DNA of 34,808 bases from a virus: IMG/VR virus record IMGVR_UViG_3300042905_002558, positions 1 through 34,808 of that record. One strand, written 5' to 3'. Shown piece after piece: positions 9,310-29,229 of the stretch. How positions within the stretch are numbered: position 1 is the stretch's first letter; every line of letters starts with the position of its first letter. The position numbers and the translations under genes were made by a program. The notes beneath the pieces are model-generated. The model did no database searches, was not told the origin of the DNA, and saw only the letters and a list, made by a program, of their open reading frames with translations.

Positions 9310-9840
9310 ATGATCCCCAAAACAGTTACAGACCGTGGCTCTGAGGCTATCGACGCTTACAAGGCCGCCCTGCCCTACGGGGAACGCTGGGCGGAAATGG
9401 TGGCCCTGAAGTGCCCCCCGGGAACCAAGGGCTCGGAGCGGGCGTTCTTGGAAGGCCGGCAGAACAACCAGCAGTTCGACAGCCTGCCCAAGCGCCAGGC
9501 CAAGTACATGATCCGGGAGGCCAAGCAGGCCGGGATCAATCCATCTGGCAAGTATTACTGTGCGGGGATCGCAGACGGCCGTGGCTGGCGAGATCCGGCC
9601 GCCTGGGTCAGCAGCAACGACGATGTACTGAAGGTGGCCAAGGCCCGCCGGATGACCGTCTCGGGGAGCGTGAACTACGACCCCGGCCCGGCCCCGCCGC
9701 AGCGCAAACTGTTGGCTGAATCCATCATTCAGGATGAGGTTCGCAAAGAGAAGCGAAAGAACCCGTCCGCCAAGGCGAGCGACCTGCGGGCCAAAGTCAT
9801 TGAGAAGCATGCGTACAGAGCGAAAGGACGAGGAGTATGA
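9310..9840 (+). CDS. Basic protein of unknown function downstream of portal
   Basis: A 176-residue basic protein. The first about 110 residues look folded and carry LKCPPGTKGSERAFLEGR, MIREAKQAGINPSGKYYCAG and GRGWRDPAAWV. The last 50 residues are Lys/Arg-rich and helical (IIQDEVRKEKRKNPSAKASD), a possible nucleic-acid or portal contact. No good ribosome site is seen before ATG at 9310 (the nearest purine run is about 19 bases away), so coupling with the portal gene six bases upstream is likely. The end overlaps the next gene by ATGA. I do not recognise the family; by position it could be a minor virion component or an assembly factor. Confidence 0.6.
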   Translation: MIPKTVTDRGSEAIDAYKAALPYGERWAEMVALKCPPGTKGSERAFLEGRQNNQQFDSLPKRQAKYMIREAKQAGINPSGKYYCAGIADGRGWRDPAAWVSSNDDVLKVAKARRMTVSGSVNYDPGPAPPQRKLLAESIIQDEVRKEKRKNPSAKASDLRAKVIEKHAYRAKGRGV

Positions 9841-10166
9841 ACGAAATCGCCAGGCACTTCAGCCCCGGAACCGTGATCACGGCCAACAGTTCGGCCGCGA
9901 CCACCTCGGGCCAGTTCCCGTTCGGCCGGTTTGGCGGGGCGTGCGTGATGATTGCCAACACCAATGGCGCCACGCAGATCAACTGGTTCGGGACGGTCAA
10001 TCCTGCCGTGACGCCCCGACAGATCTACGCCGATGGCGCGGCTGTGGCCACCGCGCTGACGGTCGGCATTCACCCCGTCCCGGATGCCTGCTTCGCGGTC
10101 CACCATGTGGTCCCAGTCATCACTGGTGCGGCCACCTGTGCCATGACCGTCATGGCCAAGGGGTAG
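9837..10166 (+). CDS. Small beta-rich virion-like protein
   Basis: A 109-residue neutral protein with a good GAGGAG ribosome site. It is rich in Ala, Thr, Val and Gly, with alternating patterns such as VMIANTNGATQINWFGTVN, suggesting a compact beta sandwich. No catalytic motif, Cys pair or membrane segment is convincing. Its size and composition resemble small head or tail accessory proteins. The function is unknown. Confidence 0.6.
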   Translation: MNEIARHFSPGTVITANSSAATTSGQFPFGRFGGACVMIANTNGATQINWFGTVNPAVTPRQIYADGAAVATALTVGIHPVPDACFAVHHVVPVITGAATCAMTVMAKG

Positions 10167-10169
10167 ACG

Positions 10170-10286
10170 ATGTTGGGCGAGACTCAACGCGAGATCAGCA
10201 AGGCGATTACCGAGCAGACGAAACTGCTCTACGCCTTGCAGCCGAAGGTGGCTGCGGCACACGGCGTGGAAGAGGGAAGGAACTGA
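10170..10286 (+). CDS. Very small helical protein, 38 residues
   Basis: ATG at 10170 follows AAGGGG by about 8 bases and lies three bases after the previous stop. The product starts MLGETQREISKAITEQTKLL and looks like one amphipathic helix followed by a short polar tail. The next gene starts five bases after its stop. Tight packing and a ribosome site argue for a real gene; the small size leaves doubt. The function is unknown. Confidence 0.45.
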   Translation: MLGETQREISKAITEQTKLLYALQPKVAAAHGVEEGRN

Positions 10287-10290
10287 CCGC

Positions 10291-13200
10291 ATGCCGATGA
10301 ATCCCCGCACCCTGCGTCCCGGCAGCACCTTCACGCCCCGCTCCATCTCTGGCCTTGCCCTCTGGCTTGACGCTGCTGACACCTCGTCGCTCTACACCAC
10401 CGACGCTGGGCCGGTGACTCCGGTGTCGGCACCTACGGAGATCAGTGGGTGCGTGGGGTGGTGGGATGCGAGCGATGCGGCCACGCTGTTTGCGGCTGAC
10501 ACCGGCACCACTCTGGCGACAACGACTGTTGGGCGGTGGGCAAACAAGGGGACGCTTGGGAGCGCAGCCGACCTCTTGCAGGCGAATTCATCGGCACGCC
10601 CCGCAATCAACGTCGCCACAAGAAACGGAACTCGCGTCCTATCGTTCGATGGCGTCAACGACGCTATGCAGCGTTCCTTCACGCTGGCGCAGCCCTGCAC
10701 GCTCCTCATGGTGTTCTCGTATTCAGCGCCGTTCACCGCTGCGACAACGCTCATGGACGGTGCGGGAACGGGGAACACGCTGCGACTCGCCCCGACCGGA
10801 CCTAACAGCGCGACCTTTACAACAGGCGGCGGCAACGGGTTGCAGTTGAACATGGGTGCGTGGGGGGCGTTCAATGCCTGGCAGCAGGCTTCGTTCGTAG
10901 CCAACAGCGGCACGTCTTCGGTCTACCGCGACGGCCCGCTGACCTCCGGCGGAACCGGCACTACGTCCGCAGTCACAAACCCAAACGGACTGACGCTTGC
11001 CATGTGGGGCAGCGGCGGGACGCAGTGGGCTGGGGTGCAGATCGCAGAGGTGGTGGCCTTCAACACCGCCCTCTCCACCACCGACCGCGCCCGCGTCGAA
11101 GCCTACCTCGCGGCGAAGTGGGGGATCACCGGAGTCCACAGGGCCGTACCGGACGAGTTGAAGGCGGTCGCGGCACCTACAGAGATCGGCGGGTGCGCGG
11201 GCTGGTGGGATGGCTCTCGCACAGACAAGATGTTTGATGCCGCAAGTGGCGGCAATCCTGTCGCCAACGGAGGCACCGTCCGGCGGCTGGAGGACTTGAG
11301 CGGCAACGGCAAACACCTCACGCAAGATAATACATCTGTGGCGCCGCTTCGCCTTGATGGAGGCCAGAGCGGGCGCACTGTTCTGTCATGCGGCGGATCA
11401 AGGGCAATGAGCGCGGGAACGGCAAGCGACTGGAACTTCCTGCACAACTCTCAAGGCGGGACTGTGTTTGCGGTCGTCAAGCCATTCGCTACGCCAGACC
11501 CGAACAACTTCGCGTCTCTGGTGAGAACAAACCTCAACTCAACCGCCCAGGTCGGCGTTTCCGTCCTGCTGGACGACAGGAGTCTGTATCCACGCAACAA
11601 CTACGCAGGCGTGTCAGTGACGGCTGGCGTGTCTGGTCAGTCAGTGGCAACCGTAGAGCGGAACAATCTGTACGACGCTGCAGACCAATTCCAACTGTTC
11701 TCCATCCGCCTTGACTGCGGGCAGGCAACGGCAGCAAGCAGAGCGGCGTTGTTTCTGTCGGGCGTGGCTGGCGGCACTACAACGGGAGCAATCGCAGCCT
11801 CCTCAAGCAATGCTGCGGAGCCGTTGCTGATTGGCGCCGCGGTGTTCAACTCTCTGGAGGCGATTGCCGAAGTCATCGTCTTCAATACCCCCCTCTCCCC
11901 CACCGACCGCGCCCGCGTCGAAAAGTACCTCGCCCAGAAATGGGGCATAGCGAACGTCCCTGACCCGACGCCTCCGGTTGGGTATTGGAGAGACAAGTCT
12001 GGGAACAACAGGCACGCCACGCAGGCGACGGGGGCGAGCAGGCCGACAGTTGGGAGCGTTGGAAGCCGGCCGGCACTTGTGTTTGATGCTGCAAATGATG
12101 GTTTGTCGCTTGCTTCGGGCATTTCTCTTGGCACAGGCGGCTATAGCGTGTCGGCAGTCTTGAGGCATCAGGGCGGTTTTCAGGTGTTTCTTGAGGGCGG
12201 CTCTCTAAGCCCTTATATGAGTTCTGACCCATCTGCCGCTGCTGGTCTTTACCACTATGACGGGCTGGTTGGTGTAAGCGCAGTCGGCGCCATGCCTGCA
12301 AGCACCAATACAATCGCATCTTTCTCAATTGCGCCAGCAGACCGCTCTATTTATGCACAAGGCGCGAGGGTTGCAGTTGGTGTAGGCACGTCGCGCTCGG
12401 CAACCATTCAGAATATCGGCCGCACCGGGTCTGGTTTCTGGTGGTCCGGGAGAATTGCAGAACTAATCCTGCACACGCGGCAGATCTCTGCCTCCGAACG
12501 CCAGCGCATCGAACGCTACCTCGCCGCCAAGTGGGGCATCACCCTCGCCCCGCAAGTCAGCAACGCCGACGCCCAAGACTGGGTGAACCGCGTCTATCAA
12601 AACGGCGGCACCGTCTCGTCCACTACGGCGACGGCGGTGAATACGTTCTGCAACGCCATCGACGAGGCAGGCATCCGCGACCGCTTCTACCGTCTCAACC
12701 TCTTCTGCGGCACCGGCCTGTCTGCGTGCCTGGTTCCGCTTTATCGCGGGCCGTCGTTTGGTGGGACGCAGTACGGCGGAACGACCGATGCCAACAACGG
12801 GCCGTTTGTCAGTGGAGACTACGCGGAGACGGGAGCGAGCGGAGGGCTGACTGGCAACGGCACATCAAAGTATCTGGATACTGGGCTGACGTATGACGCC
12901 ATGGGCGTGCCATCGACCAACCACATCGGTGTATTCAAGGGCGCTGGGACTTGGAACACCAGCATAGAAATCATCGGAGCAAGAGACGCCGACGACTACT
13001 ATTACATCCAGGGCCGCGCCCAAGTCGGAGGCGATCACAAGGTTCACGCGTTCAGCGGGCCGGGCGCCTCCGGCGGCAGTTTCATTAACAATGCGACAGT
13101 CTCGTCAGCCACTAATTTTTTAGTGGCGTCGCGGAATAGTTCCGCATCGTTTGTCCTTTACCAAAACGCGGCCTCCGTTGCCAGCACATCGTCGGCCGTA

Positions 13201-26400: not shown

Positions 26401-27235
26401 GCCGTTGATCGGCAGTGAGCTGGTCAACAACCCGGCCGGACTGATGGGCAAGACGACGCGAGCCATTGCTCGCGGGTCCGCGCCGTCTGAGGACAACTTC
26501 ACGCCGGAGTACCTGCGCCAGAGCGCTTCGATCCCGTTGCCAGAGGGGCTGCCATTGCTGGGCCTTGATCCAGGATCCAACCTCAAGCGATACCTCACCA
26601 ACATCGACCTGCCGTTTGAAAGCGTGATTAACTTGGTGACTCCGGGTGTCGGCAACAGCACCCTGGAGACGGCCGGTGGCACGCTGCGGAAGACGGCCCT
26701 CAACCTCCTTGGTCAGACCAACCCGCTGATCAAGGGGCCGCTGGAACTGTTCACAAACCGGCAGTTCTACTCCGGGCGACAGCTGTCCGACCTGTACTCT
26801 GTGCTTGAGCAAACGCTCGGGGCGCCGGGGCGGTTGGCAGAGCAGGTGCTGGTCAATGCCCCGGGCGGGAGTCGGCTCGTCGGCACGTATCGCCAATTGA
26901 CCGACGACCGCCTGTCGCCGCAGGAGAAGTATTCCAAGCTCCTGTGGAACGCCATGACCGGCCTGAAATTCCAGGACGTTGATCAGGAACGCACGCGGCG
27001 TCTCGCCGCCCGGGATACGCTCAATCAGCTCCTGGAAACCACGCCAGGCGTCCGGACCTACGAGAACATCACGGTCCCCGAGGATGTGCTGCGGGGCATG
27101 CCGAAAGAGCAGCGGGACATGTACTTGTTGTACAAGATCATTCAAAGCACGGCCGCGAAACAGGCTCGCGAGAAGAAGAAGCAGCAGGCGGCCCTGGATC
27201 CGCTCCAGATGCTAGGTGTTCTGAACCAGTTCTAG
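23465..27235 (+). CDS. Large internal (ejection) virion protein, 1256 residues
   Basis: The largest protein of the window (1256 residues), the last of the late run, similar in length to T7 gp16. It has GLAGLGWILDTPGAMVRGLL (about 57-76) and a glycine-rich region GGGLAAEVLLDPLTYMSFGA near residue 125, both possible membrane-active helices. A long helical region has a coiled coil (about 500-600), and a C-terminal third carries FPFYSYTRGIMPLIGSELV (about 967), a pattern seen in other very large phage internal proteins. I see no lytic transglycosylase or peptidase signature. It probably enters the host envelope during DNA delivery. The ribosome site is weak. Its last 24 bases overlap the 3' end of the integrase gene on the other strand. 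Confidence 0.7.
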   Translation: MAASPLFDLYDPYGLLQDQARMGLLPSDDPDEELRRRATVADLMPQEQQSSMLGKLAEMGTSGLAGLGWILDTPGAMVRGLLSEGPGKAISALWDTSDERVTGRELARQYGMASNKDNWWNFGGGLAAEVLLDPLTYMSFGANQLLGAPAKTLAGRAAQKAGMMGHMDDYARAAGVGPRVAARNATADELLKLMPADAAAAARQRFVADMGEEALTAPLARMNRIGLPGMTQGATDLFGQTIGDATAKWADEAGDSLMRNDITGPVLRRLNAAVGDADVLGMTDYDRQLEAKELSSLRRRRAAADRRTLADLQMRAENVLRGEGRSLGELDLSRGLRSALELGPESIADDTAELLSRPGVQDVTDFWDAYRDATPDRRRGLGLPIEEWQSRAGTQFVPRQQVGFDVPQRPEWPAGVVPPERIKQQYSRGNRRVNFSENLGRRRRDYTDAVGGTDTLDRLSLDPEVQKALREAANPDARLLLEDWAARNLDIGDGGLYGWVDELDTRAQDQIDSLTAEMNRLTERAGGPTRRTQQLQEQIDAMRADLPGEPQYLHKAPPLAADHPLAAQQAELSKQLAAAQRGGELHRVGELKRQLDSVVAQIPDAERDAWKDSLYTKLADFTRAMDPQHAKTGVPIFGQNTFQEISRYVQSGGRLETDADFMLNLLKKQAADVGVDDVIGNVNYTPAETLTRLGLTGEDALKVLEKRVGRPLANVSFPKKFVDDWSRVVERGQVAPELNPILEAGDNFLKTFKTLALAWPSRYSRDAYSGAFAAAMRNSFNPVDWYVGTQLRKGNYDPLVKPMLGGLIPPRLAGAPEYAELLKANPDEAVRRFLLDAGEQGMGSGTVSNELADAAANAQMRELYPGAANPQWSEVGRRFYNPDRTWREALRDYNPLATRGASGNRNPILELADRAGETTDAGNRYGTYLNQIRQGAAPEEAARVANLTQVNYSPDAFTNFERDVLKRIFPFYSYTRGIMPLIGSELVNNPAGLMGKTTRAIARGSAPSEDNFTPEYLRQSASIPLPEGLPLLGLDPGSNLKRYLTNIDLPFESVINLVTPGVGNSTLETAGGTLRKTALNLLGQTNPLIKGPLELFTNRQFYSGRQLSDLYSVLEQTLGAPGRLAEQVLVNAPGGSRLVGTYRQLTDDRLSPQEKYSKLLWNAMTGLKFQDVDQERTRRLAARDTLNQLLETTPGVRTYENITVPEDVLRGMPKEQRDMYLLYKIIQSTAAKQAREKKKQQAALDPLQMLGVLNQF

Positions 27236-28039
27236 CGGCGGTGCCGTGGGTTCCTGTCGCTTCTCCTCGGCCAGCAGCAGCCGGTCCACGTAGTACTGCT
27301 TCATCCCCGGGCTTCGATGTCCTAAGTGTCCACTGGCGTCCTTGCCGGAAATTTCGCAGTAGGTCGCCCCTGATCGCCGCAAGAACTTAGTGCTTCCCGG
27401 CAGGCCGGCAGCATTTCGGATCTGCCGCATCAGGGCCATCACCTTGTCTCGGCAGATCAGGTCGCCAAAGATACGCGGCCCAAGGACAGGCAGCTCGCGG
27501 ATGGCTGCCAGGGCGTTGTCATCCAGCCAGCACACATGGGGCCACCCAACCTTGTGCTGGCTGGGGCAGAGACGTTGGCCACGGATTTGGTCATGGCGAA
27601 TCGACAAGAGATCCTCAAGACGCAGGCCGGTGGAGTAGGCCACCAGGATCCACGCCCGTGCCAGCTTGGCTCGCGGGCATTTGCGGCCACCAGTCAGATT
27701 CGCGGCTACCGCCAGAAGCGAACGAATTTCCGCATGGCTCCACGCCCTCGGGTTGGGGGGAATCTGCTTGACACGCCGGAGGGGCCGGAGTATACTGGCG
27801 TCCACAAGTCGCTCGGAGGCGGCAAAATGCAGCAGACAACGCAGCATTTTTCTGTGGTTGCGAACGGTGGAGGGAGCAAGATGCTTCAACGCCCCAGTCA
27901 GGTAGGCGTCGATGCGGTCGGGATGCAAGTCCTCGGCCTGCCAGTCCAGTCGCCGGACGAACACCTCCAGCTGCTCCAGGTAGCCGGGCGATCCTCCCAC
28001 GCGGTTGTGGTAGAGGCGAGCAAGTGCGAGCAAAGTCAT
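27212..28039 (-). CDS. int: Tyrosine integrase (site-specific recombinase)
   Basis: A 275-residue protein. The start at 28039 is chosen because GGAGG lies 6 bases ahead; a longer frame reaches 28126 but runs into the att-like region. The N-terminal SAM-like core-binding domain spans about residues 20-95 (PSTVRNHRKMLRCLLHFA). Catalytic residues: R140 in STGLRLEDLL, probable K163 (QHKVGW), R221 in KFLRRSGATY (the usual H of HxxR is K218), H241 in HLGHRSPG, and the nucleophile tyrosine at Y249 or Y250 (MKQYYVD). It integrates and excises the phage genome at att sites. There is no long arm-binding domain, so it is on the short side. It converges on the late operon. Confidence 0.9.
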   Translation of the reverse strand: MTLLALARLYHNRVGGSPGYLEQLEVFVRRLDWQAEDLHPDRIDAYLTGALKHLAPSTVRNHRKMLRCLLHFAASERLVDASILRPLRRVKQIPPNPRAWSHAEIRSLLAVAANLTGGRKCPRAKLARAWILVAYSTGLRLEDLLSIRHDQIRGQRLCPSQHKVGWPHVCWLDDNALAAIRELPVLGPRIFGDLICRDKVMALMRQIRNAAGLPGSTKFLRRSGATYCEISGKDASGHLGHRSPGMKQYYVDRLLLAEEKRQEPTAPPLELVQNT

Positions 28040-28056
28040 GGCGAAGCCTCCGGCGG

Positions 28057-28095
28057 GGGGCTTTTTACCCACGCTTGGCAGGTGTTTAAAGCCCC
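28057..28095 (-). promoter_or_regulatory. Hairpin in integrase leader
   Basis: GGGGCTTT (28057-28064) and AAAGCCCC (28088-28095) form a perfect 8-bp stem, with possible inner ACC/GGT pairing. On the integrase strand it ends just upstream of the GGAGG ribosome site, so it could modulate integrase translation, or be a protein-binding palindrome. Confidence 0.45.
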
Positions 28096-28127
28096 GCAAA
28101 ATCGCTTTATTCGGAACTTCGGGCAAC

Positions 28128-28143
28128 TAGCTCAGTTGGTTAG
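28128..28143 (+). other. tRNA D-arm-like 16-mer, candidate attachment-site element
   Basis: TAGCTCAGTTGGTTAG is identical to the D-arm core found in many bacterial tRNAs, but the rest of a tRNA is absent: no D-stem partner GAGC, no anticodon arm, no forward T-arm, no acceptor partner. A fragment of a host tRNA beside an integrase is typical of an attP identity region, although those usually match the 3' half of the tRNA. Confidence 0.5.
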
Positions 28144-28150
28144 CCGCCCG

Positions 28151-28178
28151 CGACTCCTCGCCCTCTGCGAGCGAGTCG
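28151..28178. repeat. Inverted repeat beside integrase, candidate recombinase core site
   Basis: Left arm 28151-28161 (CGACTCCTCGC) pairs with right arm 28167-28178 (GCGAGCGAGTCG, one C at 28172 unpaired) around a 5-base centre, CCTCT. Two about 11-bp inverted arms with a short spacer resemble the core-binding sites of tyrosine recombinases. It begins eight bases after the tRNA-like 16-mer. It could also be a simple RNA hairpin. Confidence 0.5.
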
Positions 28179-28213
28179 AACCAATCTTAGAGTCGGCCTA
28201 TCTGGCCTGTCTC

Positions 28214-28232
28214 GCAGCCCTTCTCTGGCTGC
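28214..28232 (+). other. Small perfect hairpin in early leader
   Basis: GCAGCC (28214-28219) pairs with GGCTGC (28227-28232) around a 7-base loop. No U-tract follows, so it is not an obvious terminator; it may be part of a structured 5' leader of the early operon. Confidence 0.35.
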
Positions 28233-28299
28233 ACCAAATGGAACTCTGTCTCGGCCTTCTTGTGGTCGGACAGTTTCGCAAAGCGTTCAGGAGGCTCCG

Positions 28300-28345
28300 C
28301 CCACGGACGGGCTGAAGGATCGGCTGGTTGCCCATGGACGGGCTG
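28300..28345 (+). repeat. Twin direct repeat with hairpin cores ahead of early operon
   Basis: CCCACGGACGGGCTG (28300-28314) and CCCATGGACGGGCTG (28331-28345) match at 14 of 15 bases, 31 bases apart. Each contains GCCC...GGGC around a 6-base loop (the first copy uses the G at 28299), so each can form a short hairpin; the second is followed by TTTTCTCTC. They may be tandem operators for a repressor, or a leader attenuator just upstream of the exonuclease ribosome site. Confidence 0.45.
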
Positions 28346-28368
28346 TTTTCTCTCTCGGAGGTGTACAG

Positions 28369-29229
28369 ATGAACATCGATGTTTCAAACGGGCCGGTGAA
28401 AGTCGTCGGCATGGAGAGCAGTGTCTACTTCTCGCTCAAGCAATTTGACTCGCGGTCTTTTCTGCACGCGGTGAGCAAGGGTGGCGGCGAGGCCCAGCGG
28501 TGGCTGGACCAGGGCTACCCCCTGTTCACGGGGAACTCGGCCACCAAGCGGGGCGGCGAGTTTGACGAGATCGTCATGGGGATGTGTGCCGGGAAGACCT
28601 TTGATTCCCTGGTCTGCATCGCTCCGGATAAGGTGCTTGGTGCTAACGGATCCCGCAGCACCAAGGCATACAAGGAGTGGGAGGCCGCCCAGACGGGCAT
28701 CTGCTGTACGGCCGACCAGGCTTGGGTCTATCGCAAGATGATCGAAGCCATGGAGCGGAACAGTGCCGCCAAGGCTCTCATGGACCAGACCTCCGAGACG
28801 CAGCTCTCGGTGTTCTGGCAGGAGGTCAACGGACACCTTCTCAAGGTGCGGCCGGACGGCGTGACGCCTGATCTGTGGTGGGATCTCAAGACGACCTCGG
28901 CCACCTGGGATCGGCTGTACCGCAGCGTCTTTGACTACGGCTACGCGGAGCAGCAGTGGCTGTACTGCCGTGGGGCGGAGCAGATCGGCTACGAGCCGTT
29001 CCGAATGCCGTTCGTCTTCGTTCAGACCATGCCGCCGTATGCGTGCCATGTGTTCTATCTGCCTGACGATTTAGTGGAGGAGGCTGGGCAGCGGTTGCTC
29101 AGTGTGATGGAGGAGGTTCGTCTGCGGCGTTCGACCGGCGTCTACATGCCCGCTGATCACGGTGAGATCACGGAGTTGGAGATCCCGGCCTGGGCCCGCG
29201 GCAAGCAAGGAGAGGTGGTGATCCTATGA
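28369..29229 (+). CDS. PD-(D/E)XK recombination exonuclease (lambda Exo/RecE type)
   Basis: A 286-residue nuclease. Motifs in order: GGEFDEIVMG (62-71), an acidic residue in SETQLSVFW (E143), RPDGVTPD (D163), WDLKTT (D172, K174) and QQWLYCRGAEQIG (Q195/Q196 with Y199), the Q-x-x-x-Y motif of the RecB/lambda-exonuclease branch. These fit a 5'-3' double-strand exonuclease that makes single-stranded tails for the annealing protein encoded next. GGAGGTG is well placed before the ATG. It is the first gene of the early recombination operon and overlaps the ERF gene by ATGA. Assignment to the superfamily is firm; the exact subfamily is not. Confidence 0.85.
   Translation: MNIDVSNGPVKVVGMESSVYFSLKQFDSRSFLHAVSKGGGEAQRWLDQGYPLFTGNSATKRGGEFDEIVMGMCAGKTFDSLVCIAPDKVLGANGSRSTKAYKEWEAAQTGICCTADQAWVYRKMIEAMERNSAAKALMDQTSETQLSVFWQEVNGHLLKVRPDGVTPDLWWDLKTTSATWDRLYRSVFDYGYAEQQWLYCRGAEQIGYEPFRMPFVFVQTMPPYACHVFYLPDDLVEEAGQRLLSVMEEVRLRRSTGVYMPADHGEITELEIPAWARGKQGEVVIL

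Follow-up and report, generated by a model that had tools for sequence, protein, structure and literature searches.

The stretch of viral DNA analyzed here, hereafter the window, is the entire record IMGVR_UViG_3300042905_002558, which comprises 34,808 bases with a G+C content of 62%. Genes for head, portal, terminase and other virion proteins make up its left block, and genes for exonuclease VIII, Erf, SSB and helicase its right block. Between the virion-gene block and the early recombination block lies the region examined in this work, formed by a tyrosine integrase gene (int) and a candidate phage attachment site (attP), whose features are collected in Table 1.

The integrase most likely starts at its ATG rather than at the TTG listed at position 28126. 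The 304-aa reading of the protein matched the Pfam family PF00589 at an E-value of 4e-4, under the Pfam cut-off, and a match to PHROG_1 (integrase) was obtained at 5e-20. In an alignment of nine proteins, residues R140, K163, R221, H238, H241 and Y250, presumably the catalytic ones, were invariant. The structure model was of moderate confidence (pLDDT 69, pTM 0.48); its four-helix N-terminal part begins at residue 3, and the closest PDB folds were XerA and lambda Int, at a TM of about 0.4. The integrase profile found no match among the sequences of solved structures, and annotated phage records gave no match to the integrase protein and only short and weak matches at the DNA level.

The original prediction had pointed to a 16-base match to the tRNA D-arm (TAGCTCAGTTGGTTAG, 28128-28143). 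This match was present, and proved to be the 3' part of a longer 23-mer, GGGCAACTAGCTCAGTTGGTTAG, which stands upstream of the integrase ATG, on the opposite strand, across a gap of 81 bases; by chance, a given 23-mer would be expected about 1e-9 times in the window. The exact 23-mer matched 20 stretches in genome_contigs, and in 18 of them an intact tRNA begins at its first base (13 tRNA-Val and 5 tRNA-Ile according to ARAGORN), while in the other two (L022 and L025) the anticodon loop is the point at which the tRNA-Val(CAC) sequence breaks off. Judged by these matches, block 28121-28143 is the true 5' end of a single tRNA in a single orientation, and not a combination of tRNA-like pieces in conflicting orientations as had been proposed. 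The supposed T-arm read on the opposite strand (GAGTCGAACC, 28173-28182) is not kept by the relatives, three of which (L063, L065 and L072) have GAGTTGAGCC at that place; on this comparison, the match is a coincidence. A phage-encoded whole tRNA was rejected, ARAGORN having found no complete tRNA in the window, whose record may be incomplete, and an Rfam search of the window returned nothing at the gathering score. When window positions 27215-28380 (1,166 bp covering int and its flank) were compared as DNA with 397 class genomes, 11 weak matches were obtained, seven of which consisted of the tRNA block alone, at 93-100% identity.

Table 1. Coordinates of the features at the int-attP region of the window.
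Feature	Position	Strand	Remarks
Tyrosine integrase gene, 275 aa	27212..28039	-	ATG at 28039
int-attP spacer; would lie 5' of the restored tRNA gene as its new flank (promoter region)	28040..28119	+	
Left arm of the candidate attP core, CGGGCAACTAGC (tRNA nt 1-11 plus one base)	28120..28131	+	
Copy of tRNA-Val nt 1-23, GGGCAACTAGCTCAGTTGGTTAG	28121..28143	+	Exact match to tRNA genes
7-bp centre TCAGTTG, on the tRNA D-loop side; inferred overlap region	28132..28138	+	
Possible small membrane-protein ORF, 59 aa	28136..28315	+	TTG start inside the inferred overlap
Right arm of the candidate attP core, GTTAGCCGCCCG, phage-specific past GTTAG	28139..28150	+	9/12 paired
Exonuclease VIII-like gene, first clear early gene, followed by Erf, SSB and helicase genes	28369..29229	+	

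Conservation of the tRNA copy and anatomy of the candidate core

Integrase searches of viral_contigs yielded 5, then 11 and then 37 loci, the latter with integrase identities of 44-94%; L073 (24% identity), one of the 11, lies outside the 37. In all 37 integrase-found loci (37/37), the 5' end of a tRNA lies a short way upstream of int and is divergent from it. A set of 39 loci with 24 distinct cores results when the window is added, along with L129, which was recovered through its tRNA pattern. The D-arm match was not lost in relatives with the same integrase, since the five viral relatives closest to the window retain the whole 23-mer and nt 1-18 of the tRNA are common to 39/39 loci. Past nt 18, the shared run continues for up to 8 bases (0 in eight of the 24 cores, 1 in six, 5 in nine and 8 in one), and the shared tRNA block ends between nt 18 and 26 in every locus. 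The Val type (GGGCAAC or GGGCAGC) was found in 34 of the 39 loci and the tRNA-Arg type in the remaining five (L071, L083-L085 and L129).

Searched alone against viral_contigs, the exact Val 23-mer recovered five contigs, the same five as the first integrase search. A longer Val pattern ending in TTAGAGC had no match in viral_contigs, and a 22-mer extending into the window's own right arm was found in no viral contig. A 26-nt Arg pattern recovered three viral contigs (L129, L130 and L131), among which L129 has an integrase of the clade described below. L131 was set aside: its tRNA-Arg, which is intact, stands at the end of the contig, and the 3.2 kb compared contained no integrase match. L130 has, at 9512-11430, a complete tRNA-Arg between an integrase gene (29% identity) and repressor/CsrA-like genes, an arrangement that fits a phage carrying a whole tRNA as well as an integrated junction.

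A phylogenetic tree of 54 integrase rows was built without L064 and L066, and without the integrases of L022, L025 and L029, for which there was no match. The 37 viral rows with a 5' tRNA copy (the window, 35 of the 37 loci and L129) formed one clade, with support values of 100/99. L106 and L130 fell outside this clade, on long branches of unsure placement, and the Arg-type sites were located on two separate branches inside it.

An inverted repeat of about 11 bp with a 5-base centre had been put forward as part of the site. This second repeat is present (about 28151-28178) and folds well as RNA, but perfect 6-7 bp arms occur at that place only in L063, L065, L072 and L067, being absent from L068, L069, L070, L074 and L076; not kept beyond the nearest relatives, it was rejected as the attP core. 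A better inverted repeat, which the original prediction did not include, spans 28120-28150 and is centred on the tRNA copy, with a 7-bp centre that reads TCAGTTG, or TCAATTG in the Arg types. The candidate attP with a D-arm identity block was supported, with the tRNA 5' end beside int in all loci, whereas the 11-bp repeat as its core and the mixture of T-arm and D-arm were not.

Across the 24 cores, the arms paired at a mean of 7.71 of 12 positions, compared to 3.33 (sd 0.31) with the right arms shuffled. The optimum was found at a spacer of 7 and a shift of 0, and the other registers (centre moved by 1-8 bases, or spacers of 3-11 except 7) reached at most 5.2. At the optimal register, the sequence of the host tRNA itself scores 5-7 of 12, and five of the 24 cores pair at only 5 of 12, no better than the tRNA itself. 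At the outer seven positions, 91/168 were paired vs. 59 after shuffling (sd 5.7; the highest of 2,000 shuffles was 78). Val right arms scored 7.9 against Val left arms and 6.6 against Arg left arms, and Arg right arms scored 5.3 against Val left arms; among the three Arg cores, L071 scored 9 and the other two 5. The evidence that the right arm tracks the target tRNA is modest. As far as can be read from its sequence, the core has the anatomy expected of a simple tyrosine-recombinase site, with the D-arm as the tRNA symmetry used. A longer palindrome formed by the copy and GCTGGTTGCCC at 28323-28333 was not conserved and was rejected.

Target tRNA genes, hosts and integrated elements

In Planctomycetota, the tRNA gene that opens with the 23-mer is tRNA-Val(CAC). 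According to their titles, eight of the 20 genome_contigs stretches with the 23-mer belong to Planctomycetota (counting Kuenenia, which we take to be one of them), eight to Patescibacteria groups or Chlamydiae, and four only to a 'bacterium'; because of these mixed titles, the host has to be read from the tRNA alleles themselves. The exact 23-mer was detected in 7/72 genomes of the family of G004, two being the genomes of L022 and L025 and the other five having an intact tRNA-Val(CAC). A second Val allele, GGGCAGCTAGCTCAGTTG, was present in 23/57 genomes of one host family, followed by tRNA-Val(CAC) sequence in 22 of the 23 and complete in 21 (the contig of G060 ends first). The GGGCAAC and GGGCAGC phage copies match two host alleles of one family. 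The Arg-type 23-mer was exact in 102/397 Planctomycetia genomes, and all eight Arg loci that were read contain tRNA-Arg(ACG) sequence, in agreement with ARAGORN on four of them. The hosts of this virus family are probably planctomycete bacteria, and we infer from the tRNA alleles that the target of the window phage is the tRNA-Val(CAC) of Planctomycetaceae. With a tag of 18-23 nt from a tRNA 5' end beside int, it would be possible to predict which gene an uncultured phage targets and which host it probably has, here planctomycetes; the titles from the literature search named no temperate phage of planctomycetes whose attachment site had been mapped.

Integrated copies of the clade were searched for in overlapping sets of genomes from the host family, order, class and phylum. 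None was found in the 72 family genomes (best match at E 5e-28) or in the 397 class genomes (best match at 3e-35); the 296 order genomes contained only two distant, already known integrase matches beyond 1e-30, and the 294 phylum genomes contained none. In genome_contigs, 18 stretches fitted a pattern for close integrase relatives and none was confirmed. Two integrated look-alikes, a junction-like locus (L142) and a different element in G176, have the layout predicted for insertion at a tRNA 5' end. The locus L142 (genome G366) has galactarate dehydratase, MoxR and DUF58 genes of the host and an intact tRNA-Met, followed 96 bp on by a divergent integrase that is 31% identical to that of the window and covers positions 1-255 of the 274-position profile. 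Its displaced 5' fragment was absent from the genome by exact 18-mer search, and the contig ends 0.3 kb past int.

Genome G176 (L122, G176:C95:19500-36800) has a 15.2-kb element in tRNA-Arg(ACG), with two copies of the tRNA 5' end 15.2 kb apart, which share 39 nt reaching the anticodon loop. Upstream of the intact tRNA-Arg the DNA is unfamiliar and a divergent integrase of 368 aa is encoded, whereas the broken copy keeps the promoter-like flank ccctcttcc...ctacaatcg, as found before the intact genes in L114 and L115. The element appears to supply the tRNA 5' half, so that integration restoring a tRNA from its 5' side seems to occur in these bacteria, at another exchange point. The G176 integrase is 25% identical to that of L071 (E 1e-4), and the genes of the element include DUF5131, GMT-wHTH and DUF5906.

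Several other arrangements of tRNA pieces and integrases were observed. In two planctomycete MAGs (L022, 895-2360; L025, 4815-6268), tRNA-Val(CAC) is cut after the anticodon loop by an element with another integrase directly next to the cut (446 and 412 aa, respectively); when the tRNA 3' half was searched for with a 20-base pattern, one of these MAGs gave only an unrelated tRNA-Met and the other nothing. G450 (L127 and L128) has two tRNA-Arg 5' fragments ending just past the anticodon stem, with no adjoining 3' half. Genome integrases with E-values of 1e-8 to 1e-35 were also compared for tRNA pieces, and four were assigned to other types: those of L048 and L050 are next to a piece of tRNA-Arg, either internal or 3', that of L047 is next to a 3' part of tRNA-Met (by eye), and that of L101 follows a whole tRNA-Met encoded on its own strand. 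Most of the remaining genome integrase loci had no tRNA piece when compared with a small tRNA library. The tRNA-Met called by ARAGORN in L107 was dropped as support, its 5' half being non-tRNA.

Proposed integration and its alternatives

Four points were obtained directly from the sequences, namely which tRNA the copy comes from, that it is conserved next to int, that the inverted repeat has a 7-bp centre and that there are two types of target. Three features expected of a tyrosine-integrase attP are found at this locus (an adjoining integrase gene, tRNA-end identity, and inverted sites around a centre of 6-8 bp), as is the tRNA 5' end on the element that defines a 5'-fragment tRNA island. The interval 28120-28150 is likely to be the attP core, at which the integrase would exchange strands in the D-loop and the tRNA would be restored from its 5' side. 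With regard to binding, cleavage points and the recombination itself, we infer that the short tyrosine integrase would bind both inverted arms and that strands would be exchanged across TCAGTTG, which in the target tRNA gene is the D-loop. Since attP carries nt 1-18 or more of the tRNA, integration would rebuild an intact tRNA, formed by the phage 5' part and the host 3' part, and the host's own 5' fragment would move, along with its promoter, to the far prophage end. The restored-tRNA junction is predicted to read 28040-28131, TCAGTTG and the rest of tRNA-Val(CAC), and the far-end junction host upstream sequence, GGGCAACTAGC, TCAGTTG and then 28139 onward.

The same copy could belong to an attP at which exchange takes place elsewhere in or beside it, the D-loop centre being a by-product of D-stem symmetry. 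The score of 5-7 of 12 for the tRNA D-arm itself, not surpassed by five of the 24 cores, is consistent with this, as is the fact that other planctomycete integrases (L022, L025 and G176) act at an anticodon loop, whether of this tRNA or of a different one. Yet the attP has no anticodon loop, its outer arms pair above the shuffled level, and the tRNA identity ends at the right edge of the centre in 8/24 cores and one base later in six, so that the tRNA would not be restored by an exchange placed more to the right. An exchange outside the D-loop is, on these grounds, unlikely.

Two readings in which the copy has no part in recombination were given still lower probability. It would be kept either as RNA, being the 5' leader (a hairpin or a tRNA-like structure) of a rightward transcript that continues into a small ORF and the early operon, or as a captured, functionless tRNA fragment inherited by descent. 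The stretch 28115-28190 does fold as two hairpins (z -4.8) and a possible small ORF opens within the copy in 25/29 loci, but a leader would leave the host allele identity and the Val/Arg switch unexplained, G-U shows little enrichment, at 21% of the non-Watson-Crick positions vs. 16% after shuffling when the two innermost are excluded (24% when they are included), and the 23-mer alone recovers only contigs with an integrase of the clade, all of which makes an RNA leader very improbable. Phages pick up tRNA fragments, a general habit that would accommodate simple capture; that nt 1-18 are kept down to 44% integrase identity while their neighbours diverge, and that two branches of the tree have the Arg 5' end as one unit, leaves capture hardly credible. 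Strand exchange in the D-loop is the reading followed below.

Attachment sites in tRNA genes are common, those that restore the 5' side are a minority, and exchange in the D-loop is outside the subsites listed by Islander. In that collection, 3,760 of 3,919 islands have a 3' fragment and 159 a 5' fragment, and the subsites given in its Table 1 (A, T and J) are the anticodon loop, the T loop and the T/acceptor junction (PMC4383910). As summarized in two reports, tRNA-targeting integrases act at the anticodon loop, the T loop or the 3' end, and the tRNA keeps its own promoter after integration, exceptions in bacteria being few (PMC8371274, PMC4383910). Neither part of this recognised rule would hold for an integrase clade that is tied to the 5' end of the tRNA, has its overlap in the D-loop and uses at least two target tRNAs. 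As at the A, T and J sites, attP contains part of a tRNA gene beside int (PMC4383910) and a 7-bp centre that lies within an inverted repeat in a tRNA loop, and integration would restore the gene; unlike them, the part carried is the 5' end, in contrast to the 3' end of the majority, the inferred exchange is in the D-loop, and the integrase is too short for an additional arm-binding domain. It also differs from the heterobivalent integrases of the lambda type, which have a separate N-terminal domain for arm binding, in its 275 aa, with core-binding-like helices from residue 3 in the model of pLDDT 69.

The archaeal pTN3-like elements are described as a 5' exception, seldom found in bacteria, in which the tRNA is expressed from the integrase promoter, and the borders of the D-loop are mentioned as one possibility for IntpTN3 (PMC8371274). 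Beyond that possibility, no D-loop integration class appeared in the titles and abstract openings of the literature searched. As in pTN3, the element carries the 5' half of the tRNA and the restored tRNA would be parted from its original promoter (PMC5495485, PMC8371274), but the part shared by pTN3 is 41 bp long and includes the anticodon (PMC5495485), compared to 18-26 bp here, where it stops at the D-loop or shortly after it; integration also disrupts the pTN3 integrase gene, whereas int would here stay intact. A short core common to attP and the host tRNA (about 10 bp) is likewise described for tRNA-dependent lysogeny, in which the phages do not rebuild the tRNA but encode a replacement (PMC10865867); the window has no tRNA gene, and its copy could rebuild the target. 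The G176 element, from the same bacterial class, is alike in its 5' fragment and in an integrase divergent from the restored tRNA, and differs in its 39-nt identity, which extends to the anticodon loop, and its weakly similar 368-aa integrase. Short integrases with 31-bp sites are possible genetic tools.

With the host promoter displaced, the restored tRNA would have to be driven from the int-attP spacer of about 80 bp. A promoter-like pair was detected in the window spacer (p=0.02 vs. 200 shuffles), and none stood out in the nearest relatives L063, L065 and L072. After removal of near-duplicates, which left 29 of the 39 loci for the promoter and ORF counts, pairs at p of at most 0.05 were found in 13 (11/18 with long and 2/11 with short spacers), that of L075 sitting away from the common position, and a -10-like TACAAT, TATAAC or TATAAT stands 9-18 nt before the copy in 10. 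Promoter scores were higher on average on the reverse strand (5.3 vs. 4.6). From its sequence, a spacer promoter for the restored tRNA is plausible. In three short-spacer loci (L094, L098 and L099), the place of the promoter-like sequence of the long-spacer loci is taken by CTGACA...TGTCAAG inverted elements, perhaps an int promoter.

A more doubtful extension of this mechanism is that integration would act as a promoter swap, giving the phage rightward promoter to the host tRNA and the host tRNA promoter to the phage early genes. The crossover would fall, on both partners, between a promoter and everything downstream, and would place the host tRNA promoter before the small membrane ORF and the early recombination operon; if so, crossing over in the D-loop would itself act as a switch, rewiring early transcription when the phage enters lysogeny. 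The small ORF stays open for at least 42 aa in 25/29 loci, in two of which it continues into the exonuclease frame. It had no Pfam match and its substitutions do not favour third codon positions, and it was rejected as a proven gene.

The sequence GCCCAYGGACGGGCTG occurs twice in the window (28299-28314 and 28330-28345), just before the exonuclease ribosome-binding site. An RNA fold of this stretch was no better than shuffled sequence, and it is speculative that the GGA in a possible hairpin loop represents a CsrA-type site. Both copies are mostly kept in the nearer relatives.
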